Part shown: positions 1 to 36,797 of the stretch, one piece after another
How the letters are laid out: every line of letters begins with the position of its first letter
Position numbering within the stretch: the stretch's first letter is position 1
IMG/VR virus record: IMGVR_UViG_3300035703_000229
Coordinates: 1 to 36,797 of that record
Length of the DNA: 36,797 nt
Source of the DNA: a virus
Direction: 5' to 3' (one strand)
Notes under the pieces: generated by a model
The model's input: only the letters and a program-made list of their open reading frames with translations
Database searches by the model: none
Told to the model about the DNA's origin: nothing
Made by a program: the position numbers and the translations under genes

Positions 1-5
1 TTAAC

Positions 6-132
6 GCCACATAACAATGTATATAAGGCATTGCCTCTGTGGTCTTTTTTTTTAAGTCTATACTAAATTTATATTTCTGTTCATTTTATCAACATTTGTG
101 AAGGCAACGCCTCATATACTCAACGTTAGCGG
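6..132 (-). repeat. attC-like inverted repeat E7
   Basis: Two arms of about 30 bases (6-35 and 103-132) are imperfect inverted repeats; the left arm contains ATAACAATGTATATAAGGCA and the right arm has GCCTCATATACTCAACGTTA. The loop of about 67 bases is AT-rich with a run of nine T. Read on the minus strand the site starts with CCGCTAACGTT and ends with TTGTTATGTGGC, which fits the AAC...GTT layout of integron attC sites. A frame that is open on the minus strand through the left arm continues in frame into the partial gene at 36689-36797 if the ends are joined. Confidence 0.7.
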
Positions 133-141
133 TAATAAAAT

Positions 142-339
142 TTACTCCGCTTCTACTAACCCCCAATGTTCAGCATCTTCTAAACTCACTTCAATAGTGT
201 CATCTGAATCTGCTCTACCTTCATTCAAGCACCATTCATTTATTCCATACTTTTCACACATCTGACCCCAAGCATTTATGTAAGGTGCGTCTAATACATC
301 ACCCAATTTTACTGTTACTTTAATTTCGCTTCGTTTCAT
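142..339 (-). CDS. Small acidic hypothetical protein in a cassette
   Basis: A 65-residue protein starting MKRSEIKVTVKLGDVLDAPY and ending in an acidic stretch (LEDAEHWGLVEAE). I do not recognise a family. It has no membrane segment and no obvious catalytic motif; two cysteines lie mid-protein. It sits alone between two attC-like inverted repeats (E8 upstream, E7 downstream), and its stop lies a few bases before the 5' box of E7, as in the other cassettes. The ATG is preceded by an A/T-rich leader (AAATTTACGGATT) and lies just outside the E8 repeat. No promoter is evident inside the cassette, so expression probably depends on read-through from 1027-1329. The gene is probably real, because size, orientation and position match the other cassette genes. 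Confidence 0.75.
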   Translation of the reverse strand: MKRSEIKVTVKLGDVLDAPYINAWGQMCEKYGINEWCLNEGRADSDDTIEVSLEDAEHWGLVEAE

Positions 340-357
340 AATCCGTAAATTTTACAT

Positions 358-488
358 ACCGCTAACAAAGTATAACCAAAAGTGGGGCGGTAGTTCCCAA
401 AATCAGCTATTGTGCTTCTAATTTACTTTTATGGTAAGTAGGGGTTCAGCACTTTTAATCCCCACCTTCGGTTATACTCAGCCGTTAA
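358..488 (-). repeat. attC-like inverted repeat E8 (first site of array 2)
   Basis: Arms at 358-387 and 460-488 pair over about 28 bases: the left arm has CTAACAAAGTATAACCAAAA and the right arm has the complement of TAACGGCTGAGTATAACCGA. The loop is about 72 bases and carries the minus-strand motif AGAAGCACAA, also found in the loops of E1-E3 in related forms. On the minus strand the site runs from ATTAACGGCTGAG to ACTTTGTTAGCGG. It directly follows the stop of the 485-757 gene and is the upstream boundary of array 2. Confidence 0.75.
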
Positions 489-757
489 TTAATTGTTTTG
501 TATAGTTTGTTTAATTCTTTGTCAAAACTTGCTATGAAGTCAAGTTCATATTGATTCATGCTTTGCTTTATTATGTGGCTGCCTATTCTATCGCATTTAT
601 CGTTTAAGAATGTTAAAGCAAAAGTGGTGTAATCCTTATTAATAAACATCTCAAGATACCATAAGCCCAAATTAGCCTTAGTATTATTAGCTGCATTATA
701 CTCATCTAATTTATTGTAAATGTAGCTTTCCCAGTAGTTTAGTTCATCATTTAACAT
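485..757 (-). CDS. Hypothetical protein, 90 aa
   Basis: A 90-residue protein (MLNDELNYWESYIYNKLDEY...) rich in aromatic residues, Asn and Lys, predicted mainly helical, with no membrane segment and no motif I recognise. It overlaps the upstream 747-1001 gene by 11 bases in another frame, so the two are probably translationally coupled in one operon with 1027-1329. Its TAA stop lies just before the 5' box of repeat E8, making it the last gene before cassette array 2. Function unknown. Confidence 0.75.
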   Translation of the reverse strand: MLNDELNYWESYIYNKLDEYNAANNTKANLGLWYLEMFINKDYTTFALTFLNDKCDRIGSHIIKQSMNQYELDFIASFDKELNKLYKTIN

Positions 758-1001
758 GGCTGTTCAGTTTTGACATTAATAATATGTAAGTATGGTTAAA
801 TTCCTGTTCAGTAATTTGGTCGTAGCTTAATGGGTATTGCATCAGATAATTGTTTACTGAAATAGAATAATCATCTTCGCCTACAAATAAAACAATAGAT
901 TTGTTTTCATTCAGCATGTAGTAGTGATGTTTGTCTTTTGTAAATAAAGGTAAGTTTACTTCTACTTCTACTTTTTCTTTGCGTTCAATTGTTACTTTCA
1001 T
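747..1001 (-). CDS. Hypothetical protein, 84 aa
   Basis: An 84-residue protein starting MKVTIERKEKVEVEVNLPLF. The first third alternates charged and hydrophobic residues, as in beta strands; the rest is aromatic-rich. I do not recognise a family and see no membrane helix. The start is preceded by an A-rich leader (AACTAAAAATCAAAGAAC) typical of this genome. It lies 25 bases downstream of 1027-1329 and overlaps 485-757, so the three probably form one operon that reads into cassette array 2. Confidence 0.75.
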   Translation of the reverse strand: MKVTIERKEKVEVEVNLPLFTKDKHHYYMLNENKSIVLFVGEDDYSISVNNYLMQYPLSYDQITEQEFNHTYILLMSKLNSHVK

Positions 1002-1026
1002 GTTCTTTGATTTTTAGTTGTTATTT

Positions 1027-1329
1027 TTATAGTTGATTTGATAAATAATTAATTACTCCAATGTTTTCTAAATCATCAATAATAGCATATTGAAAGCAAA
1101 TATCAGAAAATTCACTTTCTAAATATTTTTCTATTTGCATTTCTGTCATTCCTATTTCATCTGTAAAAATAAATAATGCCTTATCTCCATTATTGTTTTC
1201 ATCCCAGTTGTAAGCCTTTGGTAAATGATTACTTACTCTTACTGTTATATCATCTATTTTATAATAATAAGAAGCTTTGTAAACTAAATTTGAAGGGTTA
1301 ATTTTTTCTATTATTTCGTGCGCTTTCAT
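1027..1329 (-). CDS. Hypothetical protein, 100 aa
   Basis: A 100-residue protein (MKAHEIIEKINPSNLVYKAS...) with a helical start followed by alternating strands (YYYKIDDITVRVSNHLP, ALFIFTDEIGM). No family recognised and no transmembrane segment. It is the first gene after an intrinsic terminator (1395-1428), and a TATATTTG -7 box lies about 25 bases upstream of its ATG. It probably heads the operon 1027-747-485 and the following cassette array. Confidence 0.75.
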   Translation of the reverse strand: MKAHEIIEKINPSNLVYKASYYYKIDDITVRVSNHLPKAYNWDENNNGDKALFIFTDEIGMTEMQIEKYLESEFSDICFQYAIIDDLENIGVINYLSNQL

Positions 1330-1353
1330 AATTCTTTGTTTTTAAATATAAAG

Positions 1354-1361
1354 CAAATATA
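1354..1361 (-). promoter_or_regulatory. Probable Bacteroidetes-type -7 box
   Basis: The minus strand reads TATATTTG, matching the TAnnTTTG -7 consensus of Bacteroidetes primary-sigma promoters. It lies between the intrinsic terminator at 1395-1428 and the ATG at 1329. A good TTTG -33 element is not visible at the right distance, so this is a partial match in AT-rich sequence. Position between a terminator and a gene start supports it. Confidence 0.4.
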
Positions 1362-1394
1362 AAGTAATTATTAATAACTTTTACATATGCATAT

Positions 1395-1428
1395 AAAAAA
1401 AAAGCAACTATTTTTTACAATAATTGCT
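1395..1428 (-). terminator. Intrinsic terminator after the lysis genes
   Basis: On the minus strand a ten-base stem, AGCAATTATT pairing with AATAGTTGCT (one G-U pair), encloses a short A-rich loop and is followed at once by nine T. It lies just after the stop of the holin-like gene (1456-1932) and ends the transcription unit that carries the late and lysis genes. Confidence 0.8.
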
Positions 1429-1455
1429 AACTACTTGACAATCAATAGTAAAATT

Positions 1456-1932
1456 TTACTTAATCAGTTTATCGATTTGTGTTTGTTTTTGTGCTGATCC
1501 TTGACTTGAACCGAAAAAATAAGAAACAACCTGGGTACATACAGCAGATAAAACACCTAAAACATAAATTATAATGTCTTTTTCATTTCCAACCTCTCTA
1601 AACATCAAAACATAAAATAATATAAACGTCATAACAATTACTGTTATAGCAAGTATAGGTGTAATTATTTTATTTATTAATGGAGCTGCTTCGCTTGTTG
1701 CTATCTGTATTTCACGATTTCTTGCGCTATCCATTTCTTTTTGGTAAACTTCTAATTGTTTGGTAGCTTCTTGCTCCATTATTTCTAAATGGCTATTTAA
1801 AACCTTTTGAAGCTCTAAATTAGCAGCATCTTTTTCTTCTTTCGTTTGAACGAATTTATCTACAACATTGGCAACTGATTCAACTACTTGGCCAGCTCCA
1901 CCTGAAAATATTTTATTTAGAAAGTTTGGCAT
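1456..1932 (-). CDS. Holin-like membrane protein (3TM holin family type)
   Basis: A 158-residue protein. Residues about 1-85 are charged and helical (QTKEEKDAANLELQK...), ending in AAPLINK. Two hydrophobic segments follow: ITPILAITVIVMTFILFYVL (about 90-109) and IIIYVLGVLSAVCTQVVSYF (about 120-139), then SSQGSAQKQTQIDK. The helical N-terminus followed by a membrane pair and a Gly/Ser/Gln-rich tail is the usual pattern of the phage/GTA holin-of-3TMs group common in Bacteroidetes phages. It would sit in the inner membrane and time lysis. It lies downstream of the DUF5675-like protein and a one-TM protein, and is followed by a strong terminator. The family call is from pattern recognition; a holin role is inferred from context. 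Confidence 0.7.
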   Translation of the reverse strand: MPNFLNKIFSGGAGQVVESVANVVDKFVQTKEEKDAANLELQKVLNSHLEIMEQEATKQLEVYQKEMDSARNREIQIATSEAAPLINKIITPILAITVIVMTFILFYVLMFREVGNEKDIIIYVLGVLSAVCTQVVSYFFGSSQGSAQKQTQIDKLIK

Positions 1933-2022
1933 AAAAAAAATTTATTATATTTGCATACGTTCTTTTCATAAAACTAATATTCTTTGAACAACGAAGCCTT
2001 TCAGAAATGAGAGGCTTTTTTG
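1925..2022 (+). ncRNA. Candidate small RNA transcription unit on the plus strand
   Basis: The plus strand shows TTTG at 1925-1928, 17 bases, then TATATTTG at 1946-1953, a full match to the Bacteroidetes promoter form. About 45 bases further on is an intrinsic terminator (1994-2021): AAGCCTTTC pairs with GAGAGGCTT, followed by a T run. A transcript would start near 1960 and be about 60 nt long. It would lie opposite the main direction of transcription, between two lysis genes, and has no convincing ORF. The terminator is clear; the promoter could be chance in AT-rich sequence. Confidence 0.4.
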
Positions 2023-2024
2023 AT

Positions 2025-2450
2025 TTAAAGGATTTGTAATGTGTGTTTTTCATCTTTGTGCAATAGCAAAAGATTAACCAAATCATTTTCAGCTTTTGTG
2101 CTATCGAATATCGCATTGTCGCCTTTCTGATAACCCACTAAAATACAGCCGAGCGAATGATCCGCCGAGTTCCCTCTGTGCATGAGAACACCATCAAATC
2201 CTTTTATATTAAGAATACGAGGCAACATCCTTTTAAACTTAGGACTTAAGTTAACTATCAACTCATAATTGCCTGAAGGAATTGCAGTAACTCCAAAAAT
2301 CTTTTTTGTGTTAATGAATAAAAGACTATCTGTTTGTTTTAATCCTCTATCTTTATCTTCTAATGTATAACAGAAAAACTTCTCGTTAACATAAAGCTTT
2401 CCGATAGTGCTTACTTCTGTTTTTATTTCTCTAACTACTTTTAGTTTCAT
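2025..2450 (-). CDS. DUF5675-like protein, probable lysis-region enzyme
   Basis: A 141-residue protein. Recognisable blocks are GKLYVNEKFFCYTLEDKDRG (about 17-36), IFGVTAIPSGNYELIVNLSP with KFKRMLPRI (about 51-80), GFDGVLMHRGNSADHSLGCI (about 85-104) and LVG. The IPSG...SP.F...P, then IH/HxGN, then S.GCI(L)VG layout is that of the DUF5675 family, often found with phage lysis genes. The conserved His and Cys recall L,D-transpeptidase-like peptidoglycan enzymes, but I cannot confirm activity. It lies between the 67-residue membrane protein upstream and the holin-like gene downstream, so a cell-wall role is the likely reading. It overlaps the upstream gene by 20 bases. Confidence 0.65.
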   Translation of the reverse strand: MKLKVVREIKTEVSTIGKLYVNEKFFCYTLEDKDRGLKQTDSLLFINTKKIFGVTAIPSGNYELIVNLSPKFKRMLPRILNIKGFDGVLMHRGNSADHSLGCILVGYQKGDNAIFDSTKAENDLVNLLLLHKDEKHTLQIL

Positions 2451-2634
2451 CTTCTATCTTTTTTGGTAAAATAGCTTCATTTGGTCTTGTATAGAATTGT
2501 TCGTATCTATCACGTTCTAAACAATTAAAAAGTTTTTCTTCTAAATTAGCTACTCTATTATGTGTGTGCCATAGCCATAATACTAAAACAGCAGTTGCAC
2601 CATATTTCTTTATAAGTTCTAAAGTTTCTTTCAT
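2431..2634 (-). CDS. Small single-TM protein in the lysis region
   Basis: A 67-residue protein with one hydrophobic segment near the N-terminus (GATAVLVLWLW, about residues 12-22) and a charged, probably coiled C-terminal part (NRVANLEEKLFNCLERDRYE). Proteins of this shape are common next to phage endolysin and holin genes. They may act as small holins, antiholins or spanin parts; which applies cannot be told here. It overlaps both neighbours slightly, so it belongs to the lysis operon. Confidence 0.65.
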   Translation of the reverse strand: MKETLELIKKYGATAVLVLWLWHTHNRVANLEEKLFNCLERDRYEQFYTRPNEAILPKKIEDETKSS

Positions 2635-2849
2635 GGTATTGGTGGTGTTGGTGGTGGTGTGTATGGACTTAATGGAATATCTAATAAATAAGAATATTCC
2701 GTTTTCGCCACATCAATTTCATCCTGTTCGCTTAAAAATAAAAAGTAAATTCCATTAATATCTTGAACAAAATTAAAAAATGTATCGCTATCAATGAATA
2801 CCCCTTGTAATTCATTTGCTTGTTGGTTTGTTACTATTCTGCCTTCCAT
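2631..2849 (-). CDS. Hypothetical protein with proline-rich tail, 72 aa
   Basis: A 72-residue protein starting MEGRIVTNQQANELQGVFID and ending in a proline-rich tail (PLSPYTPPPTPPIP). The body has aromatic and acidic residues and no membrane segment. I do not recognise a family. It lies between the tail fibre gene (2877-3716) and the lysis genes and overlaps the next gene by four bases (ATGA), indicating coupled translation. It may be a small virion or fibre-associated protein; this is inference from position only. Confidence 0.65.
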   Translation of the reverse strand: MEGRIVTNQQANELQGVFIDSDTFFNFVQDINGIYFLFLSEQDEIDVAKTEYSYLLDIPLSPYTPPPTPPIP

Positions 2850-2876
2850 ATTATTTTATACTGTTGTTTAATCTTA

Positions 2877-3716
2877 TTATACTTGACGAGCTAACGTTGT
2901 TTGGTAATTTTGAACCGCTGTATATAAGTTAGCCGCTTCTGTATCTGTTAAGCCATCTCCTATTGAAGCAAATGCACATTCTTTTCCTGAATAACCCGAA
3001 GGTGTGCCAACATAATAATTATAAGCGGCTAAATATAATGCAACTGTAGGTAACTGTGTCATTGTTGTTGTTCCTGTTGCTGTTGCTTTTATTGTATTAT
3101 TTTTGTATAGTTTTAAAGAACTTAAGGATGTTCGTGAAGCAATAAATAAACCACGCGAATCAGTTTCAGTTGTTGATATAAAAGATGTTCCAGACGCATT
3201 GCCTATGCCTATAAGTTGTTGATTAGAACTATATCTGGTTGTTAAATAGATAATAGGTTGTTCAGATGCTGTTATTGAACACCCCATTTCAACATCATCA
3301 GCCGCAACATTTGTTCTTGAATAATAAGATACATGAGCAGTTGATAAAGATAATGCTGTATTTGGCATTAAATTTGTATTTGCATAGGCAGATGTTCCAT
3401 TACCTACCATACCTGTACTTGAATGTGTCCATCCTGTTGAAAATGTTAATCTAAATGCAGCATCTGTATCTAATGGATTTTTTAAATTCCATTTATGAGT
3501 ACTTGCAGTTCCACCAACAATAGGATATATAGCTTTCATTTTAGTCCAAATTTTAGCACTCTTTAAATCTAACACAAACTGATTAACTGCACTTTGTTGA
3601 GTAGGGTTTGTTATACCAGCAGCAGTAATAAAAGCTTGAGCGTCGGGATCAGTTCCACCTCCACCGCTTGCAACTTTTACATTTGACTTAAATAAACTTT
3701 TACCTATTCCTATCAT
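2877..3716 (-). CDS. Probable tail fibre / receptor-binding protein
   Basis: A 279-residue protein. The N-terminus (MIGIGKSLFKSNVKVASGGG) is short and Gly-rich. It is followed by AAGITNPTQQSAVNQFVLDL and KAIYPIVGG...KWNLKNP. From about residue 90 the composition is Ser/Thr/Ala/Tyr-rich with repeated short beta strands. The protein ends LYTAVQNYQTTLARQV, a typical end of Bacteroidetes phage fibre proteins. The C-terminal two thirds look like a jelly-roll/lectin-type beta sandwich. It overlaps 3713-3991 by four bases (ATGA) and lies after other fibre-like genes and before lysis. A role in adsorption is inferred. Confidence 0.65.
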   Translation of the reverse strand: MIGIGKSLFKSNVKVASGGGGTDPDAQAFITAAGITNPTQQSAVNQFVLDLKSAKIWTKMKAIYPIVGGTASTHKWNLKNPLDTDAAFRLTFSTGWTHSSTGMVGNGTSAYANTNLMPNTALSLSTAHVSYYSRTNVAADDVEMGCSITASEQPIIYLTTRYSSNQQLIGIGNASGTSFISTTETDSRGLFIASRTSLSSLKLYKNNTIKATATGTTTMTQLPTVALYLAAYNYYVGTPSGYSGKECAFASIGDGLTDTEAANLYTAVQNYQTTLARQV

Positions 3717-3991
3717 ATATTCTTTTCTTGATAAGCAATAATACTTCCACTTGTTAAAGTAATTGCGGTGATGTACTCAAAATAAGGCACATAAAACCAG
3801 TCACCAGCTTTTAATGTTTTACCACTTATTCCAAATATGGTAACATAATTTTTACCCCCACCAGTTGCAACTGATACAACGGTGTCTTCACGAACATAAA
3901 AAGCACATATTTGTTCACCTGTTCTTGCGTTTGTATCTGCTATTAGTTCAGAACCTCCTGAAACTCCAGCTCTATTTGCGAATGTTATCAT
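3713..3991 (-). CDS. Small beta-rich structural protein, 92 aa
   Basis: A 92-residue protein (MITFANRAGVSGGSELIADT...) with alternating hydrophobic residues, Gly-rich turns and the segment GDWFYVPYFEYITAITLTSG. It looks all-beta and soluble. Family not recognised. It lies between a 48-residue gene and the tail fibre, with ATGA overlap to the latter, so it probably belongs to the tail tip or fibre group, perhaps as a trimer-forming or chaperone-like accessory. Confidence 0.6.
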   Translation of the reverse strand: MITFANRAGVSGGSELIADTNARTGEQICAFYVREDTVVSVATGGGKNYVTIFGISGKTLKAGDWFYVPYFEYITAITLTSGSIIAYQEKNI

Positions 3992-3997
3992 TTTATT

Positions 3998-4144
3998 TTA
4001 ATTATTTATTGGTTCATCATTTTGATAATATATATACTCTAAACCATTACATAATGCTGATGTAACGGTTGCTTTTTCTTCAATCGTTAAAGTCCTTTCA
4101 GGCTCTATAAATTCGCCATTATTTATTGCTTTAATTATTATCAT
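3998..4144 (-). CDS. Very small hypothetical protein, 48 aa
   Basis: A 48-codon gene running MIIIKAINNGEFIEPERTLT to QNDEPINN. Its ATG overlaps the TGA stop of the fibre gene 4141-5451 in an ATGA arrangement, and its TAA precedes the next ATG by a few bases, so it fits tightly between two genes with no other coding possibility. This supports it as real despite its size. Strand-like N-terminus, then a helical acidic region (IEEKATVTSALCNGLEYIYY). Function unknown; probably part of the tail-fibre operon. Confidence 0.6.
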   Translation of the reverse strand: MIIIKAINNGEFIEPERTLTIEEKATVTSALCNGLEYIYYQNDEPINN

Positions 4145-5451
4145 CTTACTAAGTTTAAATATGAATCATTAATTGTGATAGTATCTGTTCCTACAGTTAA
4201 CTGACCGCTTAAAATAATGTATTTATTAGTTGCAAAATTTATACTTAAAGTTGAAAAATTGCCGCTTGTAAAAGAGCTTTGAACATCTGAAGCTGCTGAT
4301 GCTGATGGTGTAATTACATTTTGTGAACTTACACTATTTTTAAATACAATATTTCTTACAAATAAAACAGATGTTGTTGAAAATGTGTAAGTAGCTATTA
4401 AGGTTGCTCCTGTTAATGTAAGTGAATCATTTGCATAAACCTTTAATGTTTTATTTCCACTCACACTAGTTGGTAAAGCTCTTACATTAATAATTATTCT
4501 ATCATTCGCTTCAATTGTACCACCAGTAATTAACGATGAATCTAAAATAGTTTCAGTTGTCGTTCCTGTTAAAGAAACGTTTATATTATTTTTATCTAAA
4601 GTATAATAAGGGGTGTAGCCTAAAACAGTTGTAATGCTTTTATTCTCATAACGAGTTGTAGTTGAGTTCCAAAATATACCATCATTATTATTAGGACTTG
4701 GCAAGTAGCAATCATGGAGCTCCCCAATTTCCCACCCGTTTTGTACCTTACAATATATTTTACCTTGGTTAGCATGAGCGTAAACAACATAGCCAACAAC
4801 AACTAAATGATTAGGTGCAATAGGCTGTACCTTTGTAAGATTTCCTGGTGTTGATGAACTAAGATAAAGTACATCCCCATCGTTCCATGTTTCACCTTGC
4901 AAACTTCCCGTTGTATTTAATCCTGTTAACTCGCCAATTACAACTATTCTACCGCTTTGATTATTATCTATATTCTCATAAACAATACCTATTGTATCAG
5001 TAGAATTTCCATTGCTATCTGCTAATGCATAATCAACAGCTAATCTTTGCCCTTGTGCATCTTGTACTTTTAGAACTTTATATCCTGTAGCCAATAAATT
5101 GTCACCTGTTTTATTTACTACTGTTAAGTAAAGATTTTCAGGATAATCATTTGCACCTCCGCCACTTATATAACCTAATTGTTGCCAAGTCGAAACTCCG
5201 TCACCAACTTTTAATTTAAATGTAGTTGTTCCAGTATCTTCTACCCCAACTTGCCCCTTTAATAAAATATAAGTTGATGCATTCCACTGAGCAGTTGTTT
5301 TAGTTATTTGCTGCATACTCCAGTCAATATAACCATCTGTAACCTCTCCTGTTTGTGTTCCTAAGTCTTTTATACCTAAGATATTTAAAACAACGTCAGA
5401 GAATGTTTTAAGCTTTAAAAATCCATTTAATATTTTAACCTTATAACTCAT
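4141..5451 (-). CDS. Tail or head fibre protein with Mtd-N-like module
   Basis: A 436-residue protein. Near residues 50-95 it has the pattern W-N-A-S-T...L-L-K-G-Q-V-G-V-E...FKLKVGDGVSTWQQLGY, which resembles the N-terminal module of phage tropism-determinant and fibre proteins (GEIGVE...KIGDG...W). A central block (NLYLTVVNKTGDNLLATGYK ... GETWNDGDVLYLSSSTPG ... VVVGYVVYAHANQGKIYCKV) matches a beta domain common in fibre-like virion proteins. The C-terminal part is Ser/Thr/Asn-rich and beta. It starts ATGA-overlapped with the baseplate-like gene 5448-5783. Function as a receptor-contacting fibre is inferred. Confidence 0.65.
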   Translation of the reverse strand: MSYKVKILNGFLKLKTFSDVVLNILGIKDLGTQTGEVTDGYIDWSMQQITKTTAQWNASTYILLKGQVGVEDTGTTTFKLKVGDGVSTWQQLGYISGGGANDYPENLYLTVVNKTGDNLLATGYKVLKVQDAQGQRLAVDYALADSNGNSTDTIGIVYENIDNNQSGRIVVIGELTGLNTTGSLQGETWNDGDVLYLSSSTPGNLTKVQPIAPNHLVVVGYVVYAHANQGKIYCKVQNGWEIGELHDCYLPSPNNNDGIFWNSTTTRYENKSITTVLGYTPYYTLDKNNINVSLTGTTTETILDSSLITGGTIEANDRIIINVRALPTSVSGNKTLKVYANDSLTLTGATLIATYTFSTTSVLFVRNIVFKNSVSSQNVITPSASAASDVQSSFTSGNFSTLSINFATNKYIILSGQLTVGTDTITINDSYLNLVR

Positions 5452-5783
5452 GAAGTTCTTATAGTAACGTGATTTTCAAAAATGATTTTATCTGTAATTA
5501 CTGAATAAATAATATCGTTTGAGTCCTTAACTTTAATATCATAAATAAAAGAACCAACTAAACTTACATTTTCATTTGCCATATCGAATTCTGTGATACC
5601 TTCTAAACTATCTACATGGGTAGTTGTATCAACAGATATTAAAGCTTCGGCATCAGTATCTTCAAATCTTTTTTTAACAGTAAAAAAGCAAGTGCAATTT
5701 GTTAAATCAAATGCAGTCCCATCTTCTGAAGATATTTGAACTTTTACGGGATAAGTGTCCCCTTTAATCCTTCGGATAACCAC
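5448..5783 (-). CDS. BppU-N-like baseplate or fibre-anchoring protein
   Basis: A 111-residue protein. The start MVIRRIKGDTYPVKVQISSE, then FDLTNCTCFFTVKKR and the late FIYDIKVKDSNDIIYSVITD give the strand order of the small Ig-like N-terminal domain of phage baseplate upper proteins (GDT...V...G.P.DLT...I.FTVK...YDI...). No membrane segment. It follows the connector gene 5764-6312 with 20 bases overlap and precedes the fibre gene with ATGA overlap, consistent with a part that anchors fibres to the virion. Family match is by pattern only. Confidence 0.55.
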   Translation of the reverse strand: MVIRRIKGDTYPVKVQISSEDGTAFDLTNCTCFFTVKKRFEDTDAEALISVDTTTHVDSLEGITEFDMANENVSLVGSFIYDIKVKDSNDIIYSVITDKIIFENHVTIRTS

Positions 5784-6312
5784 AAAACCCCCTTCCTTTT
5801 TTAATTATTTTTCTTGCTCCTAATTGTCGTATGTTTAATTGATTGTTTAATTCATGCTTATCGCAGTCATTATAAAAATCATAAACAACTCCGTCATAAG
5901 TAAAGTTGTCATCAAACATTTTATTTTTTAATTTATTCAAGTAACCACTTTTTTGGCTTTCAACATCAGCCATTAAAGCCGCTCTAACTTGATCGCTTAT
6001 TTCAGCGCTTGTATCTTCGTTATTTTGTCTTATTCCATACTGACTAATATTTCTACCATGATATAATAAAAACCGATAATAAGCACCTAAAACTAAAAAC
6101 GGTTTAATGTAATCTTCAAACAATGCATTTAATTGTGGCATTGTTGTAAGGTTATCTTTTAAATTAGTATAGAAGTTTGCTGGAACCCATGAATCCAAAT
6201 CCAATTCCTGAACAACTCTAATGAATTGGTCTAAGTCAGCATCCTTTACGTTCTTACCTAACTTAACGTAAATATCAAAATCGCTCTTAATTATTAGTGG
6301 TTTGTATGCCAT
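5764..6312 (-). CDS. Probable head-tail connector (DUF6712-like)
   Basis: A 182-residue, mainly helical protein starting MAYKPLIIKSDFDIYVKLGK, then DADLDQFIRVVQELDLDSWV, FEDYIKPFLVLGAYYRFLLY and, near the C-terminus, LNNQLNIRQLGARKIIKKGR. This matches the pattern of small helical phage proteins next to the portal in Bacteroidetes phages (DUF6712-like), thought to act as head-closure or adaptor proteins. It overlaps the portal gene by 26 bases. The connector role follows from helical content, size and position; the family assignment is moderate. Confidence 0.55.
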   Translation of the reverse strand: MAYKPLIIKSDFDIYVKLGKNVKDADLDQFIRVVQELDLDSWVPANFYTNLKDNLTTMPQLNALFEDYIKPFLVLGAYYRFLLYHGRNISQYGIRQNNEDTSAEISDQVRAALMADVESQKSGYLNKLKNKMFDDNFTYDGVVYDFYNDCDKHELNNQLNIRQLGARKIIKKGRGFCGYPKD

Positions 6313-7498: not shown

Positions 7499-7537
7499 AA
7501 TTCAAATTTAGTTTTTAATTTACTTTTTAAAATTTAC

Positions 7538-8131
7538 TTAATATAATTCTTTGTAGTCAACCCACTTGTTTAATATAGTACTTTGGTTAGGCGGATGCAA
7601 AACAAGTTTCTCTTTACTCTTAAACCAATTTAAAGAAGGCATCAATGAAGCAATATAAGTATCAATTTGTTTCTGCTCTTCTTTTATAGTTTCTAAAATT
7701 ATAGGAATAGCTTTTTTATTTACAATGTAACCATAACCACCCCAACTTGCGAAACATTTATTTAAGAATAAAGAATAATTGACTGTACTTCCTAAAGGCG
7801 AATAACCGCCTAAGTGTATGCCATCCCAATTTTCAGGAAGTTCACTTAAACAATCATTCAACTTGTTTAAAAATTCATCTGTAAAATCAACGTCATCTTC
7901 TAAAATAAAAACACTCTCCAAATCTAAGTTTAAAGAGTGTTCTAAAATTGATTTATGACTTCTTAAAGTTGCTATTTCAGTAGGTAATAAAAATCCGTTA
8001 TGGTTTATTCCTTTGCTTTCGGTTGCCTTCCACGTTTCGGCTTTGATGTTTGCTCTTTTGGAGTTTCTTGCAAATTGCTCTCTTCTGTCTGAAGAGGATT
8101 GTAAGTTAATGCAATAACATTTTCCGATAAT
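7538..8131 (-). CDS. Glycosyltransferase family 25-like protein, unusual start
   Basis: The frame encodes a full GT25 (LPS-type galactosyltransferase-like) domain. Near the start is CYCINLQSSSDRREQF, then ETWKATESKGINHNGFLLPT, EIATLRSHKSILEHSLNL, the catalytic-type ESVFILEDDVDF, then CFASWGGYGYIVNKKAIPII and a C-terminal HPPNQSTILNKW. The expected N-terminal INL...DRR block has no in-frame ATG before it; the frame is open from 8152. Start choices are ATT at 8131, ATC at 8128, or a -1 frameshift from the 8005-8328 gene at its A9 run (8142-8150), which would give a 263-residue fusion. A TTG at 7921 would delete half the domain and is unlikely. It overlaps 8005-8328 by about 125 bases. Confidence 0.7.
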   Translation of the reverse strand: MIGKCYCINLQSSSDRREQFARNSKRANIKAETWKATESKGINHNGFLLPTEIATLRSHKSILEHSLNLDLESVFILEDDVDFTDEFLNKLNDCLSELPENWDGIHLGGYSPLGSTVNYSLFLNKCFASWGGYGYIVNKKAIPIILETIKEEQKQIDTYIASLMPSLNWFKSKEKLVLHPPNQSTILNKWVDYKELY

Positions 8132-9489: not shown

Positions 9490-9553
9490 AATTGTAATGT
9501 GTATATTTTACATTTAAAAACCTCAAAAATCCCATCGTAAAAATGATAAACTA

Positions 9554-26794: not shown

Positions 26795-26867
26795 GTTTAT
26801 TTGTTTTTATTTAATTTTTAAATAAGTCGCTACTTTATAGCGAAAAGAAGTAAGTTATGGGCAATGC
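26789..26867 (-). repeat. Terminal element T1 of cassette array 1
   Basis: On the minus strand the last cassette ends GGCATTGCCCATAACTTAC, followed by a short perfect hairpin (TCGCTA-TAAAG-TAGCGA) and an A-rich leader with CTTATTTAAAAATTAAATAA just before the next ATG. Element T2 at 36301-36365 has the same order: TAACTTAC, a CGCTACTTTATA segment, and an almost identical leader. The hairpin loop is inverted between the two copies. T1 lacks a GTT-type 3' box, so it marks the end of the array. Confidence 0.65.
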
Positions 26868-26878
26868 CAGCGGACACC

Positions 26879-27583
26879 CTAAAACATTCGGAGCTGGCTG
26901 ACAAAATCTATAAAACGCTTTTCTTGCTTCTCATAATATTCTGTATCAATTTCAAATCCAGTGTAGTTTAACCCTGCCTTATGGGCTGCAATCCTACTAC
27001 TTCCGCTCCCAACGTGAGTATCTAAAATACTTTGCCCTTCCGTTGCATATTTGTAAAAAATCCAATCATACAGCTTTATCGGTTTTTGGGTCGGGTGAAA
27101 TTTATTTGCCTTATCTAAATAAGCTGAATGCCTAAACATTTTTGGGGCTTTATCAAATGAAGTCCATGCCATTTCACAATCGGCAAATGATAATCCTTCG
27201 GGTATTTCTTTATCCCAAATTATGTAGTTTTTGCACGGTGGAAGTTCAAAGTAATTACCGCCCCAAATGATTTGATTTTTTGAAACTCTAAATAATTGGG
27301 CAAAGTATTCAGGGCTTGGCGTTTCTTTATCCCAATCCTTAGGCTTCCATTTCCTGTTCTTTATTTTAGATGCTTTTTTGCTTTTACCTACTCCCATATT
27401 CATATTAGCCAAGTCAAGCCCATAAGGCGGGTCTACAACAGCCAAATCAAATTGATTATCAGAAAAGCGTTTTAAAGCCTCTACGCAATCTTCTAAATAA
27501 ACTTCCGAGATAGGCACTGCACCTAACACGGGTTTGGCAAAATGCGGGGTTTCGTCTTTCAATTTATCTTCTGTACTTATCAT
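26879..27583 (-). CDS. DNA methyltransferase (N4/N6, beta-type motif order)
   Basis: A 234-residue DNA amino-methyltransferase. Motif IV DPPYG is at 51-55; IIWGGNYFELPPCKNYIIWD follows; KFHPTQKPIKLYDW is at 161-174; and the SAM-binding motif I, LDTHVGSGSSRIAAHKAGLN, is at 187-206 with YTGFEID. The order catalytic motif first, SAM motif last is that of beta-class enzymes. It probably protects phage DNA from host restriction. The start codon and first 20 or so residues (MISTEDKLKDETPHFAKPVL) lie within repeat E1, so the N-terminus is encoded by the attC-like site. It is the last cassette of array 1. Confidence 0.88.
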   Translation of the reverse strand: MISTEDKLKDETPHFAKPVLGAVPISEVYLEDCVEALKRFSDNQFDLAVVDPPYGLDLANMNMGVGKSKKASKIKNRKWKPKDWDKETPSPEYFAQLFRVSKNQIIWGGNYFELPPCKNYIIWDKEIPEGLSFADCEMAWTSFDKAPKMFRHSAYLDKANKFHPTQKPIKLYDWIFYKYATEGQSILDTHVGSGSSRIAAHKAGLNYTGFEIDTEYYEKQEKRFIDFVSQLRMF

Positions 27584-27654
27584 AAACTTTTGTTTTTCAA
27601 TTAAACTTTTGTGCTATTAAGCCCGCCTTCGCCAAGCCGTCAACCGTTATAAGC
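27519..27654 (-). repeat. attC-like inverted repeat E1
   Basis: Arms at 27519-27553 and 27619-27654 pair imperfectly over about 32 bases (GGGTTTGGCAAAATGCGGGG against the complement of GGCTTGGCGAAGGCGGGCTT). On the minus strand the site opens with GCTTATAACGGTTGACGG and closes with AAACCCGTGTTAGGTGC. The loop holds the methyltransferase ATG after AATTGAAAAACAAAAGTTTA, a 20-base string repeated in the loop of E4. The stop codon of the upstream cassette gene lies in the 5' box. Confidence 0.8.
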
Positions 27655-27940
27655 AATTGCTAAGAACCTGCTTCCAATTGACTTTTTCGCCACAATAAGG
27701 ACAGTAAACAAACCTGCTTAAATATCCTCTTCTACCATCGACTATTTGACTTTTAGTTTGTGGTTCGCCATTTAATAAACCATACTTTTTGAAAGTCGGT
27801 TGAATATTTACAATACTTTCTACTTCATAATCAATAGTAGATTTGTTTACTTTTTCTCCGCTAAGAAAACCTACTAAGCAATCGCAGCTGCTTATAACAT
27901 CGGTTTTGCAATAGTGGGGTTTTTGTGCTTTATTTGCCAT
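27647..27940 (-). CDS. Zinc-ribbon-like hypothetical protein in a cassette
   Basis: A 97-residue protein with two metal-binding-like sites: CKTDVISSCDC near residues 10-20 and CPYCGEKVNW near 80-89. The CPYCG...W pattern is a zinc ribbon end; the middle contains FKKYGLLNGEPQTKSQIVDG and RRGYLSRF. Similar short proteins occur in many Bacteroidetes phages and mobile regions; no function is known to me. Its ATG lies in the loop of repeat E2 and the arm encodes KPHYCKTDVISSC. Its TAA stop overlaps the 5' box of E1. Confidence 0.7.
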   Translation of the reverse strand: MANKAQKPHYCKTDVISSCDCLVGFLSGEKVNKSTIDYEVESIVNIQPTFKKYGLLNGEPQTKSQIVDGRRGYLSRFVYCPYCGEKVNWKQVLSNCL

Positions 27941-28024
27941 TTGTGCTTCTATTTAAGTTTATTTGTGGGTTAAACATTTGTGCCTTGAAACCCCACCATC
28001 GCAAAGCCGTTTGCCGTTACCAGC
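27890..28024 (-). repeat. attC-like inverted repeat E2
   Basis: Arms at 27890-27924 and 27987-28024 pair over about 35 bases (CGGTTTTGCAATAGTGGGGT against the complement of CGGCTTTGCGATGGTGGGGT). On the minus strand it runs from GCTGGTAACGGCAAACGG to AAACCGATGTTATAAGC. The loop of about 60 bases carries the motif GAAGCACAAATG, in which the ATG is the start of the 97-residue gene. Its 5' box lies five bases after the stop of the 145-residue gene. Confidence 0.8.
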
Positions 28025-28028
28025 AATG

Positions 28029-28466
28029 CTACTTGACTGCATATAAATCAAATGACGACAATGCCCTACCTGCTTTTAGTTTGCCATCTGAAAATAGCCG
28101 TAAAAGTTTTGACTTCTTCAAGCAATCAATACTCCAACCTTTAGGTGGTATTACAGTAGGTACATTTTGCTTCCATTCACCATATCCACCAATGCCATCT
28201 ATGTGTATTACATCACTGCATCCGCTTAGTCTGCAAAATGGTTCGTTACCTTTTACGGCTACAAAGTCCATACACCAAAATCCGCTATCGTGTAAGTGTT
28301 TGGTTGGAAGTATTATCAAGCTGTCAAACTCTCCAATATCTTCGTTCCATTCCCTCGCAGGTAGGGCTTCAAGTTCCTTTTTAGTCCAGTACTCAAATGA
28401 CCGCACTGCTGGTAACACGGGTTTTGCGTCAGCAGGGGTTTCGGTTGTTAATTCAGCTTTTTTCAT
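28029..28466 (-). CDS. Hypothetical cassette protein, 145 aa
   Basis: A 145-residue protein. The N-terminus MKKAELTTETPADAKPVLPA resembles that of the methyltransferase (ETPhfAKPVLgAV) because both are encoded by attC-like arms. The remainder has SFEYWTKKELEALPAREWNE, HLHDSGFWCMDFVAVKGNEP, GCSDVIHIDGIGGYGEWKQN and a C-terminal SFDLYAVK. No motif I recognise; the Asp/Gly/His-containing middle could be a small enzyme or binding fold. It lies alone between repeats E3 and E2. Its stop (TAG) is five bases from the E2 5' box. Confidence 0.7.
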   Translation of the reverse strand: MKKAELTTETPADAKPVLPAVRSFEYWTKKELEALPAREWNEDIGEFDSLIILPTKHLHDSGFWCMDFVAVKGNEPFCRLSGCSDVIHIDGIGGYGEWKQNVPTVIPPKGWSIDCLKKSKLLRLFSDGKLKAGRALSSFDLYAVK

Positions 28467-28543
28467 TCTATTAAACTTTAGTTGTTATTTAGTCTTTTGT
28501 GCTTCTAAGCCCTGCCGAACGCAAAGCCCGATAACGTTAGCGG
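28408..28543 (-). repeat. attC-like inverted repeat E3
   Basis: Arms at 28408-28441 and 28507-28543 pair over about 34 bases (GGGTTTTGCGTCAGCAGGGG against the complement of GGGCTTTGCGTTCGGCAGGG). On the minus strand it runs from CCGCTAACGTTATCGGG to AAACCCGTGTTACCAGC. The two boxes within this site do not match each other beyond AAC/GTT, but each matches the box at the far end of its own cassette. The ATG of the 145-residue gene lies in the loop, and the TAA of the upstream gene lies in CGCTAAC. Confidence 0.8.
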
Positions 28544-28752
28544 TCAGTGCTATCTGACTGCTCCAATTGACGCTTTTTATTATTTCTTTCATTAATCCAT
28601 TTATCTATGTCGCCAAAGATGATTAATTGATTTAATTCATATCTATCAAGCGACCTTAACAAAGAAAGTATATTTGCATCATACAATCTTTTGTCTTGAA
28701 AATCCAAACGCTTACATAAAGCGTCAATTAATTGCTCTCCGTTTAAATTCAT
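28537..28752 (-). CDS. Hypothetical cassette protein, 71 aa
   Basis: A 71-residue helical protein (MNLNGEQLIDALCKRLDFQD, KRLYDANILSLLRSLDRYEL, NQLIIFGDIDKWINERNNKK) with a polar end (RQLEQSDSTDR). It has no recognised family or membrane segment. The last codons CGC-TAA form the CGCTAAC 5' box of E3, so the recombination site sets the C-terminus. Its ATG is 24 bases past the E4 site. It begins with an A-rich leader (AAATGAAACGAAAATG). Confidence 0.7.
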   Translation of the reverse strand: MNLNGEQLIDALCKRLDFQDKRLYDANILSLLRSLDRYELNQLIIFGDIDKWINERNNKKRQLEQSDSTDR

Positions 28753-28776
28753 TTTCGTTTCATTTACCGCACCGAA

Positions 28777-28872
28777 CCGCTAACAAGGCATATACGCTAC
28801 CCCTGCGGATGGTACGCTGTTAAACTTTTGTTTTTCAATTACGGGGCAGCGTATATGCCCCAACCGTTAGGC
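28777..28872 (-). repeat. attC-like inverted repeat E4
   Basis: Arms at 28777-28803 and 28843-28872 pair over about 27 bases (AAGGCATATACGCTACCCC against the complement of GGGGCATATACGCTGCCCC). On the minus strand it runs from GCCTAACGGTTGGGG to GCCTTGTTAGCGGTT. The 5' box GCCTAAC fits RYYYAAC exactly. The loop contains AATTGAAAAACAAAAGTTTA, shared with E1, but without a start codon here. Confidence 0.8.
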
Positions 28873-28895
28873 ACAATAGCACCCAACCGCACTGG

Positions 28896-29102
28896 TTAGT
28901 TTACTAAATATAGATACTTGTTCCATCCGCCATCTTTTTGGTCAACTTCCAAAGTAAAACTCATTCCCTTTATAAATTCCTTTTTCATTTTTGCTTCATC
29001 CTTTATTTTAGCCAATTCAAACGCTGGCAATTCACTTTCAAATTCAAATGAATCATACCATTTACCTGTATATTTGAAAAATTCTACTTTTACTTTTGTC
29101 AT
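28896..29102 (-). CDS. Hypothetical cassette protein, 68 aa
   Basis: A 68-residue protein (MTKVKVEFFKYTGKWYDSFE, PAFELAKIKDEAKMKKEFIK, GMSFTLEVDQKDGGWNKYLY) with beta-helix-beta alternation and no motif known to me. It lies between E5 and E4. Its upstream 45 bases and downstream 30 bases are nearly identical to those of the next cassette upstream (29214-29573), although the proteins are unrelated. The shared leader contains GAAGGAATTATTAACTAAAA, which may hold a ribosome-binding site (GAAGGA). Confidence 0.7.
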   Translation of the reverse strand: MTKVKVEFFKYTGKWYDSFEFESELPAFELAKIKDEAKMKKEFIKGMSFTLEVDQKDGGWNKYLYLVN

Positions 29103-29146
29103 TGTTTTATGTTTTTAGTTAATAATTCCTTCGCTATGCTACTGAT

Positions 29147-29203
29147 GCCTAACACGGGCTAAAACAACATTAAAACGATTGTTTAGCCCGAGAACCGTTA
29201 GGC
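29147..29203 (-). repeat. attC-like inverted repeat E5 (best match to integron boxes)
   Basis: Compact 57-base site. On the minus strand it starts GCCTAACGGTTCTCGGGC and ends TTTTAGCCCGTGTTAGGC. Outer boxes GCCTAAC and GTTAGGC fit RYYYAAC and GTTRRRY exactly and are complementary; inner arms GGGCTAAAC and GTTTTAGCCC pair. The 5' side has three extra bases, an asymmetry like the spacers of attC sites. Confidence 0.85.
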
Positions 29204-29213
29204 ACAATAGCAC

Positions 29214-29573
29214 TCAACCGCACGGTTTATCCTCATTATAAAAAATTTCTACTTCTTTAATTCGCAGCTTTGTCGCACACTCAATACTAAACTTTCCTTT
29301 TTTCTTTTGAGCATCTTTTAATGTTTGTTCAATTAGCCAACATTTATCCTCTGGTATATTTAAGTCTACCATTCTGAAAAGCAAGTTTAGTTCTTTAGCT
29401 CTTTTCTTTGCAGCTTTTTGTTCATCCGTTTCAGGATGGTACTTTATTTCAATCTCTCGTAATTTTGCAGCAAATTCAAAGTTTCCAAGCGTAACGGCTG
29501 CGTTTTTTAATCGGATAAGTCCTCGTCTATCCTTTTTAGCTGCTTCAATTAATTCGTTAATCATTTTTTCCAT
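29214..29573 (-). CDS. Hypothetical cassette protein, 119 aa
   Basis: A 119-residue, mainly helical and basic protein: MEKMINELIEAAKKDRRGLI, RLKNAAVTLGNFEFAAKLRE, IEIKYHPETDEQKAAKKRAK and DKCWLIEQTLKDAQKKKGKF. The NFEFAAKLREIE segment is like the UVR-type helical pair but is short and unproven. It is the first cassette of array 1, between E6 and E5. Its end (KPCG, TGA) is followed by GTGCTATTGTGCCTAAC, the same end as the neighbouring cassette. Related short proteins are frequent in Bacteroidetes phages; function unknown. Confidence 0.7.
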   Translation of the reverse strand: MEKMINELIEAAKKDRRGLIRLKNAAVTLGNFEFAAKLREIEIKYHPETDEQKAAKKRAKELNLLFRMVDLNIPEDKCWLIEQTLKDAQKKKGKFSIECATKLRIKEVEIFYNEDKPCG

Positions 29574-29619
29574 TTGTATATTTATTTTTAGTTAATAATT
29601 CCTTCGCTGTGCTACTGAT

Positions 29620-29676
29620 GCCTAACACGGGCTAAAAGTGCATTAAAACGACACTTTAGCCCGATGCCGTTATATT
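29620..29676 (-). repeat. attC-like inverted repeat E6 (first site of array 1)
   Basis: Compact 57-base site very similar to E5: minus strand GAATATAACGGCATCGGGC ... TTTTAGCCCGTGTTAGGC. Inner arms GGGCTAAAGTG and CACTTTTAGCCC pair. The 3' box GTTAGGC matches GTTRRRY; the 5' box ATATAAC is adjacent to the VRR-NUC stop and has no matching partner, as expected for the upstream end of an array. Confidence 0.8.
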
Positions 29677-35358: not shown

Positions 35359-35616
35359 CTAAAATGGTAGATTATAATCGTCTATTTTAGGAGTGTACTT
35401 TGTTTCGTTTGAGTAAGTTTTTGTCTCATTCTCTTTTTTAAATGGCTCTTGGAATGCTGCACTGAAATACTTAACACCTTTTTGACTTTCTTTTAACCAT
35501 AATGATATTTCCATTTCTTTACCATTTACGTTAACAGTACCTTTGTAGTCAGGTTGTTTCTCATTTGATTTTTTAGCATTGTTAAAAATTGCTCCTGAAT
35601 TGTTCTTAGTTTCCAT
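35359..35616 (-). CDS. SSB-like small protein with acidic DDYNLPF tail
   Basis: An 85-residue protein. Residues about 20-60 are DYKGTVNVNGKEMEISLWLK, then GVKYFSAAFQEPFKK, similar to the small beta DUF736-like fold (IS.WL.ES..G.KYFS). The C-terminus is IDDYNLPF, which resembles the acidic DDDIPF-type tip used by single-strand binding proteins to bind partners. A short linker rich in Lys, Thr and Asn joins the two. Neighbour of the ERF protein, so a DNA-binding role in recombination or replication is likely. It overlaps the winged-helix-like gene by 11 bases. Confidence 0.55.
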   Translation of the reverse strand: METKNNSGAIFNNAKKSNEKQPDYKGTVNVNGKEMEISLWLKESQKGVKYFSAAFQEPFKKENETKTYSNETKYTPKIDDYNLPF

Positions 35617-35851
35617 GTTTCTGTTTTTTATTGGTTATTGTAAATTGTTTGTAATTACACTTTGTTTTCTCATTTCTTAACCATTGCTCATTAACTGAAT
35701 AACCTAATTTTCTAATCATTGCTATTAGCTTGTGAAGGTTAAGAGTTCCTTGATTGCACTCTTTTTTAGTAATGGCATAAGCATTTGAACCATTTACTGC
35801 AATGCCACTTAGTAAGGCATCTAATACAGCTTGTTTTTGTGTTTTTTTCAT
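35606..35851 (-). CDS. Winged-helix-like small protein, 81 aa
   Basis: An 81-residue basic protein: MKKTQKQAVLDALLSGIAVN, GSNAYAITKKECNQGTLNLH then KLIAMIRKLGYSVNEQWLRN and CNYKQFTITNKK. The 'VLDALL..G...N...A....' helix, followed by 'L...IR.LGY.V...W..N...YK.F.I', is the pattern of winged-helix proteins that are common in phages (helix-turn-helix plus wing). It may control early genes or bind DNA during replication. A consensus promoter lies 17-47 bases upstream, so it heads an early operon. Confidence 0.6.
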   Translation of the reverse strand: MKKTQKQAVLDALLSGIAVNGSNAYAITKKECNQGTLNLHKLIAMIRKLGYSVNEQWLRNEKTKCNYKQFTITNKKQKHGN

Positions 35852-35867
35852 AATAATAAAGTTTTTA

Positions 35868-35898
35868 CAAATATAATAATAATTAATTTTAAAGCAAA
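35868..35898 (-). promoter_or_regulatory. Consensus promoter of the early recombination operon
   Basis: The minus strand shows TTTG (35895-35898), 19 bases, then TATATTTG (35868-35875). The start of transcription would be about 35862, 11 bases before the ATG at 35851. The promoter overlaps the last codons of the upstream gene. Confidence 0.65.
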
Positions 35899-36101
35899 TT
35901 ATAAGACAAATAATTATCAGTTAAAATATCCATTTGTTTTTTTAGTGAAATATATTTATCAGTTAACTCAAAATTAATGTCTTCTTGAACATCTGCAAGT
36001 TTCTCGCATACTTCAATTAACTCTTTTTCTATTTCAGATATTCTAATTAACCTATTGATTTGAACTTTTGGAATATTTTCCATGTATATTTTAGTTTCCA
36101 T
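35889..36101 (-). CDS. Small coiled-coil protein, 70 aa
   Basis: A 70-residue helical protein (METKIYMENIPKVQINRLIR, ISEIEKELIEVCEKLADVQE, DINFELTDKYISLKKQMDIL) with heptads of Leu/Ile that suggest a coiled coil. No family recognised. It overlaps the Cro-like gene by 11 bases and ends inside the next promoter. Its role is unknown; it could be a partner of the Cro-like protein. Confidence 0.65.
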   Translation of the reverse strand: METKIYMENIPKVQINRLIRISEIEKELIEVCEKLADVQEDINFELTDKYISLKKQMDILTDNYLSYNLL

Positions 36102-36300
36102 ATTTAGCAGTTTTTTGTTTATAAAATTCGTTAATTAGGTCAAGTAAGTCATCACTACATTCGCCTGACTTAAAAGCCTTGTGAATAGTGACTAAACTAA
36201 ACTTTTTTCCTTTTTTATCGGCAAACCTTTTTAGCTGAGTTTGGTCTCCGAATGAGTAATACTCATCTATTGTGTCTTTGATGTGTTTGGGTATTTTCAT
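36091..36300 (-). CDS. Cro-like putative DNA-binding protein
   Basis: I choose the ATG at 36300 (69 residues); the longer frame upstream runs into the preceding cassette gene. MKIPKHIKDTIDEYYSFGDQ, TQLKRFADKKGKKFSLVTIH and KAFKSGECSDDLLDLINEFY show a helix-turn-helix: 'LKRFADKKGKKFSLVTIHKAFKSG' with recognition helix near 35-48. This pattern (F.LVTI.KAFK.GECSD.L...I..FY) is familiar from small regulators in Bacteroidetes phages. It follows terminal element T2 and its A-rich leader, as the 53-residue gene does after T1. Regulation of the early genes is inferred. Confidence 0.6.
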   Translation of the reverse strand: MKIPKHIKDTIDEYYSFGDQTQLKRFADKKGKKFSLVTIHKAFKSGECSDDLLDLINEFYKQKTAKYGN

Positions 36301-36365
36301 ATTTGTTTTTAATTTAATTTTAAATAAGACGATATAAAGTAGCGCAAATTTGTAAGTTAGCGGCA
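36301..36365 (-). repeat. Terminal element T2 of cassette array 2
   Basis: On the minus strand the cassette ends with CTTGCCGCTAACTTAC, followed by TTTGCGCTACTTTATATCGTC and the leader CTTATTTAAAATTAAATTAA, which leads to the ATG at 36300. This parallels T1 (26789-26867): TAACTTAC, CGCTA...TAGCG-like segment, the same leader. The middle hairpin sequence is the reverse complement of T1's (CGCTACTTTATA), as if inverted. Confidence 0.65.
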
Positions 36366-36368
36366 AGC

Positions 36369-36557
36369 CTAATCGACAGCACGAAAGACACGCCACCCAC
36401 CAGAGATTAATCCGTAAAGAGTTAAAATCATTAATGTCCAATCATACCAATCTCTTGGCTTGCCAATTTTGATTTCGATTATGTGAATAGCAAATCCACT
36501 TCCACAAATCAGGACTAAAATTAAGCCCCAAATAAAACTTCTTGTTTCTTTATTCAT
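36369..36557 (-). CDS. Small two-TM membrane protein in a cassette
   Basis: I choose MNKETRSFIWGLI at 36557; an ATG ten codons upstream is possible. The 62-residue protein has a hydrophobic segment FIWGLILVLICGSGFAIHII (about 8-27), then KIGKPRDWYDW and LMILTLYGLISGGWRVF (about 42-58), so two membrane helices with a short loop. Family unknown. The TAG stop lies six bases before the 5' box of T2. It lies alone between E9 and T2 and is the last cassette of array 2. Confidence 0.65.
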   Translation of the reverse strand: MNKETRSFIWGLILVLICGSGFAIHIIEIKIGKPRDWYDWTLMILTLYGLISGGWRVFRAVD

Positions 36558-36602
36558 TTTGTTGTTTTTTATGTTGTTAATAATCATTCCGAAAGAAGGG
36601 CA

Positions 36603-36681
36603 GCCGATAACAGCACATACACGCTATTTTTCTGCCCTCATTCCAACGCTCACAGCGTGTATCTGCAAAACGTTATGTGGC
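36603..36681 (-). repeat. attC-like inverted repeat E9
   Basis: Arms at 36603-36625 and 36654-36681 pair over about 24 bases (AACAGCACATACACGCT against the complement of AACGTTTTGCAGATACACGC). On the minus strand it runs from GCCACATAACGTTTTGCAG to TGTGCTGTTATCGGC. Loop about 28 bases. The 5' box extends to TTAATGCCACATAAC, which matches the sequence after the 3' box of E7 at the left end of the window. Confidence 0.75.
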
Positions 36682-36688
36682 ATTAAAC

Positions 36689-36797
36689 CTATCTAATATA
36701 TTTAGTAGGTCTTTTTAATATTTCAGTAATAAAATTACATAGTGTTTCAAATTCGCTCACAGTTAAATTTTGTATCTCTGTTCCACCAGCATACTTC
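36689..36797 (-). CDS. Partial cassette gene cut by the window edge
   Basis: The minus strand reads KYAGGTEIQNLTVSEFETLC and on to ITEILKRPTKYIR followed by TAG (36689-36691), 35 residues without a start. The stop is three bases before the long 5' end of E9. If base 1 follows base 36797, the frame continues upstream without stop through E7 (LYTLLCGVKKYAGG). The preceding residues would then be encoded by the repeat arm, as for the genes after E1-E3. No in-frame ATG is seen there; TTG is possible. Family unknown. Confidence 0.55.
   Translation of the reverse strand, partial: KYAGGTEIQNLTVSEFETLCNFITEILKRPTKYIR

Follow-up and report, generated by a model that had tools for sequence, protein, structure and literature searches.

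The window, meaning the whole stretch of DNA that was analysed (36,797 nt; IMG/VR record IMGVR_UViG_3300035703_000229), carries gene cassettes bounded by hairpin sites, and it begins and ends within such a cassette. The locus raises the question of whether the left and right ends are two halves of one cassette in a circularly mapping genome, as an earlier note on this DNA had claimed, and of which enzyme moves the cassettes. The window very likely represents a nearly complete, circularly mapping phage genome that was linearised in an array cassette, with about 100 bp absent and with a cassette recombinase acting in trans. The host of this tailed phage is probably a member of the Bacteroidota.

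Window ends and genome map

On the minus strand, positions 15-1 read GTTATGTGGCGTTAA and positions 36686-36672 read TTAATGCCACATAAC. The two are complementary at 14 of 15 bases, as the earlier note had it, and this pair is the best when each cassette start is compared with each cassette end. Over the 14 bases after G^, the joint cassette (d2) pairs with itself at 13 of 14 positions and with any other cassette end at no more than 8 of 14. The nine true start/end pairings score 8–13, the 72 wrong pairings have a mean of 6.5 and a maximum of 10, and a score of 13 is reached by just 2 of the 40,200 GTTA × TAAC pairs in the window.

That both ends belong to one cassette is borne out by this pairing and by a related viral contig, L003 (IMGVR 3300046777_001290), which carries flank, cassette, and flank in one piece. 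In window coordinates, L003 runs 2849..473, 128..1, a stretch of 100 bp, 36797..36672, and 36365..35597. A second relative from a different sample, L004 (3300037502_001734), has the d2 cassette near its array-1 side (L004 7653-11382 corresponds to window 29727-33465). The left edge of the window, 1..132, is 97.7% identical to L003 2233-2358 and 97.8% identical to L004 6665-6799. The right-hand part of d2 (36673..36797, minus strand) covers the final 35 codons of an ORF of 67 aa and is 99.2% identical to L003 2459-2584 and 98.5% identical to L004 6432-6564; the right-hand edge of d2 (1-15, within site E7) resumes after about 100 missing bases.

The 100-bp stretch between the two edges includes the ATG of this ORF together with its first ~32 codons; the ORF is intact in L003 and L004 (MKNLEEALENAKNTMRKMDINELNNEIVNIGLKYADGTEIQNL...). 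As the stretch is identical in the two relatives, the window contig lacks about 100 bp at the joint, and the claim that base 36797 directly precedes base 1 fails. A direct join would indeed leave the minus-strand frame of 36689-36797 open, reading LCGVKKYAGGTEIQ..., but this is a coincidence, given the 100 extra bases in the relatives. The peptide GVKKYAGG predicted across the junction is an artefact (relatives read GLKYADG), and the frame held in common with the genes after E1 and E3 becomes meaningless with ~100 bp missing. An exact circle, in which the d2 of this phage is a 100-bp shorter version, would accommodate the open frame and the origin of both ends in one cassette. It is highly improbable, however, because a real deletion would have to fall precisely at an arbitrary contig end, L003 and L004 show 0 differences over the same 100 bp, and the direct join deprives the ORF of its ATG. 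Some other insert at the joint is likewise improbable.

The notion of a circular or permuted genome stands, as the order closes via L003, via G005, and via 14 relatives in which the flanking genes are neighbours; the contigs of relatives were examined for unrelated DNA flanking each end, and none occurred. G005 (34,748 bp, with a 127-bp terminal repeat and aligned pieces 81–95% identical to the window) is empty at array 2 and colinear through the joint (26858->492, then 36309->35292, with 492 directly abutting 36309), thus providing independent evidence of the circular order. A terminal repeat was sought in the window record and not found. These alignments show a genome map that is either circular or circularly permuted; the molecule itself may be circular or linear with terminal redundancy.

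An assembly overlap trimmed twice is a poor explanation of the missing 100 bp, given that the overlap in G005 is 127 bp. The contig probably broke within d2 because this cassette has copies in differing contexts (in array 2 in L003, near array 1 in L004). Similar attC sites have been reported to complicate assembly (PMC9024848), which fits a contig end at this position. With the genome layout settled, the case serves as a warning that phage contigs may be broken at a cassette array, with a spurious fusion gene as the result. Nucleotide searches gave no relatives of window positions 1-12000 among 50,697 named phages and, for the array-1 boundary, chance matches only in named phages.

Arrays, cassettes, and constant sites

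By site pattern and predicted fold, the window carries two integron-like arrays with nine attC-like sites. Array 1 (26855..29676, minus strand) harbors six cassettes, which on the plus strand follow the constant site 26820-26854^ in the order c1, E6, c2, E5, c3, E4, c4, E3, c5, E2, c6, E1. The c1 ORF (26879-27583) encodes an N6/N4 DNA methyltransferase; it is the exception, as no Pfam family was found for the other eight of the nine cassette ORFs, including those of c2 (27647-27940), c3 (28029-28466), c4 (28537-28752), c5 (28896-29102), and c6 (29214-29573), all on the minus strand. The attC-like sites lie on the plus strand at 27520..27653 (E6), 27891..28023 (E5), 28409..28543 (E4), 28777..28873 (E3), 29146..29204 (E2), and 29619..29676 (E1, the distal end). 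The start codons of c1, c2, and c3 (27581-27583, 27938-27940, and 28464-28466) are situated in the loops of their own attC sites E6, E5, and E4, such that an attC arm encodes the N-terminus.

Array 2 reads, on the plus strand, 36322-36356^, d1, E9, d2 (the joint), E7, d3, E8, gene A. Cassette d1 (36357..36611, minus strand) has an ORF at 36369-36587 (72 aa, no family) and is followed by E9 (36604..36679, plus strand). E7 (1..132, plus strand) has R'' CACATAAC at 8-15 and R' CG^TTAGCGG, ending at 132. In d3 (126..366, minus strand; ORF 142-339, 65 aa, no family), the start TTAGCGGTA is complementary to the R'' of the same cassette, TACCGCTAA. E8 (359..491, plus strand) forms the distal end, where R' TTAATTAATT runs into gene A (485..757, minus strand), the left flank; the right flank is gene B (36091..36300, minus strand, start 36300), which encodes MKIPKHIKDT.... 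Genes A and B are close together in 14 viral records. In 10 of these there is no insert, and the stop of gene A overlaps the ATG of gene B (ATGA), while L003, L017, and L025 carry differing cassettes between ...ATTAATTAAC or ...ATAAATTAAC and the constant site. The corresponding gap in L018 (about 6267-6660) is filled by an unrelated gene without an attC-like site, as if another insertion route had used the same gap.

Each array begins at an attI-like site on the plus strand, at 26820..26854 for array 1 (cut G26854^T26855) and 36322..36356 for array 2 (cut G36356^T36357). The pattern of this constant site is found in 13 other viral contigs; in bacterial genomes, the exact pattern was not found. 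Across the 15 sites (13 viral and the two of the window), ~35 bp before the cut are conserved (mostly 1.6–2.0 bits), and the sequence is variable directly past TTA (mostly <1 bit, the A at +10 excepted). The cassettes next to these sites mostly differ, with one start common to L042 and L048, and the main adjoining ORF is antisense in all arrays with judgeable ORFs. The attI-like sites of the phages and of the prophages differ in sequence. Between the two window sites, the hairpin loop is inverted (CGCTA-CTTTA-TAGCG in array 1, CGATA-TAAAG-TAGCG in array 2).

All nine attC-like sites share TAACA...CG^TTA, in which the constant A and C stem partly from selection, as the site pattern demanded TAAC[AG] and CGTTA. 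They form imperfect hairpins with an unpaired spacer beside the R boxes, and the minus (bottom) strand is the more stable in 8 of 9. Two hallmarks of attC are present, namely AAC...G^TT in the R''/R' boxes (9 of 9) and complementarity between the start of a cassette and that cassette's R'' end. The R' GTTRRRY / R'' RYYYAAC consensus is absent (GTTATGT, GTTAGCG, GTTACCA, etc.). The R' edge is G^TTANNNNNNA, cassettes begin with this sequence, and the A at +10 is constant; the only cassette-start rows without it are three (TTAATTAATT twice and TTATTTTATT) that resemble distal array ends. The +10 A after G^ is unmatched in the R'' partner and may be an orientation or strand signal. In class 1 and Vibrio integrons, attC has the polarity TAACAA...GCG^TTA, with which the window sites agree. 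Every cassette ORF is on the minus strand, like the other main genes of the phage, and is thus antisense to the attI-to-attC polarity. Near-identical attC copies are shared between phages, and an Rfam search gave no credible match.

Recombinases beside arrays of the same signature

IntI (TIGR02249) has no match above its cut-off in the window or in the L002-L005 records, PF00589 has none in 27 relative records, and the window lacks the intI in the same element that defines a complete integron. As no tyrosine recombinase was found in the phage or its relatives, a cassette recombinase would have to act in trans. Scanning genomes with the methyltransferase gave Bacteroidota loci in which its relatives lie in the same cassette type, including Flavobacterium croceum and Chitinophagaceae; none of the six genomes bearing relatives of the methyltransferase cassette passes the IntI cut-off. 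The G^TTANNNNNNA-type signature with the +10 A is found in Bacteroidota genome loci and in recombinase loci.

In the prophage-like L067, a 278-aa XerA-like tyrosine recombinase is encoded at 5831-6667, past the attI end and divergent from the array. Its 278-aa relatives in viral records (L078-L083, about 5001-5834) also adjoin arrays. Around six recombinase loci, the detector places all of its 14 sites on a single strand (0 on the opposite one) and gives 0 in shuffles, with the qualification that L081/L082 and L083/L084 look near-duplicate. The site beside the recombinase gene is TACATATANTAG^TTA in five of six loci and degenerate in L078. A further tyrosine recombinase is present in three of six viral records and a serine recombinase in L067, so that the XerA-like enzyme need not be the integrase of the phage genome.

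The additional domain specific to IntI (Messier and Roy 2001, cited in PMC2426708) is absent from the XerA-like recombinases. TIGR02249 aligns to them in two pieces, leaving ~60 positions (~181-239) unmatched, and scores 161–216 bits against a cut-off of 265; 2a3v aligns at 6-179 and 248-319. The RKHRH...Y active site is complete, with R133, K158, H223, R226, H249, and Y258 invariant in family A1. An AlphaFold model of the recombinase was set aside (pLDDT 56).

Among 395 Bacteroidota genomes, family A1 gives a phage-type high score in its source genome only and about 240 bits in 14 others. Near 15 chromosomal relatives (~240 bits) there are 13 detector sites, 12 of them with the +10 A, and 400 kb of control DNA, drawn from seven of those genomes, give 4 detector matches and 0 full-signature matches; as the detector was tuned on window sites, these counts and those around the six recombinase loci are indicative. 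The chromosomal recombinases pass NF040815 and fail TIGR02249. In L101-L105, L109, L110, L113, and L114, signature sites lie about 1–8 kb from the chromosomal recombinase. These sites are mostly downstream and on the recombinase strand, whereas the prophage layout is divergent.

Cassette movement and relation to known systems

Array 2 may have grown as cassettes were inserted site-specifically beside gene B, at the attI-like site, each inserted cassette ending in an attC hairpin. The cassette genes would be read by the phage's own minus-strand transcription, which would explain why their ORFs are antisense to the attI-to-attC polarity. The enzyme supplied in trans would most likely be a XerA-like integrase encoded by a host or prophage of the Bacteroidota, and possibly a classical IntI. 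The correlation of site signature and neighbourhood suggests XerA-like enzymes as the most likely movers of the cassettes.

That a classical host IntI moves them, with the phage arrays being ordinary CALINs, is the somewhat unlikely alternative. IntI1 recombined P12002L_attC2 of a phage CALIN in E. coli (Qi et al. 2023, PMC9892861), and the P12002L sites have loop and arm sequence in common with E1/E2 and E7. However, Bacteroidetes have almost no classical integrons (IntegronFinder 2.0, PMC9024848), complete IntI integrons being nearly unknown there, the IntI cut-off is reached in 0 of 6 methyltransferase-cassette genomes, and the signature sites adjoin insert-less recombinases instead. Exchange by phage homologous recombination between common attC or flank sequences, rather than site-specifically, is quite unlikely: the sharp stop of homology at the G^TTA of the attI-like site and the unique cassette starts, each complementary to its own end, speak against it, although an ERF protein is encoded at 34821-35309 and different phages hold near-identical attC copies. 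Least probable is that the hairpins, lying between small genes, serve as transcription terminators or mRNA structures. Strong hairpins do stand between genes of an apparent operon, three of them holding the start codon of the next ORF, but such elements would not account for the fixed G^TTA/TAAC edges and own-end complementarity, for empty and filled sites, or for one cassette in different arrays.

A further, tentative proposal is quite possible: a distinct Bacteroidota/phage integron system characterized by a G^TTANNNNNNA edge, antisense phage genes, and XerA-like enzymes without the IntI domain, in which lytic phages would borrow the enzyme for recombinase-free arrays with attI-like sites of their own. 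Both a viral origin of integrons and their descent from a Xer-like ancestor were speculations of Escudero et al. 2016 (PMC4792948); if real, the proposed system would be a living example of that domain-less ancestor and of the phage link. The findings point to a system for cassette exchange in Bacteroidota phages. Its candidate recombinase is without the domain that is considered essential to integron integrases, which opens both integron origins and phage/host gene exchange to direct tests.

Phage-borne attC arrays without an integrase are already known (Qi 2023, PMC9892861), and the array is a variation on these; it is the recombinase link that deserves follow-up. Phage CALINs, especially that of Polaribacter phage P12002L (NC_028924), share attC-type sites, small cassettes, DNA methyltransferase cargo, and a phage without an integrase; two P12002L sites further resemble those of the window in arm or loop sequence, in antisense ORFs, and in the +10 A. 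In contrast to CALINs, the two window arrays each begin at a conserved attI-like site common to many phages, occupancy differs among relatives, and there is a non-IntI recombinase candidate.

IntI integrons (class 1, Vibrio superintegrons) likewise have an attI-like site, attC hairpins with AAC...G^TT, complementary cassette ends, and a cut at G^TT. They differ in that the window ORFs are antisense to attI-to-attC, R' is G^TTANNNNNNA rather than GTTRRRY, and the recombinases near related arrays lack the additional domain and fall below the IntI cut-off. No report of integrons with insert-less recombinases was found in the part of the open literature covered. XerA/XerD-type recombinases (NF040815; PDB 5hxy, 4a8e) align full-length with the array-side enzymes without the IntI insert, but the latter adjoin cassette arrays; the NCBIfam name of NF040815 already reads 'site-specific tyrosine recombinase/integron integrase'. 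CTXphi, which uses host XerCD, is also an integrase-less phage that relies on an enzyme of its host, which works on a folded site (PMC4792948), but it integrates its whole genome instead of capturing gene cassettes.
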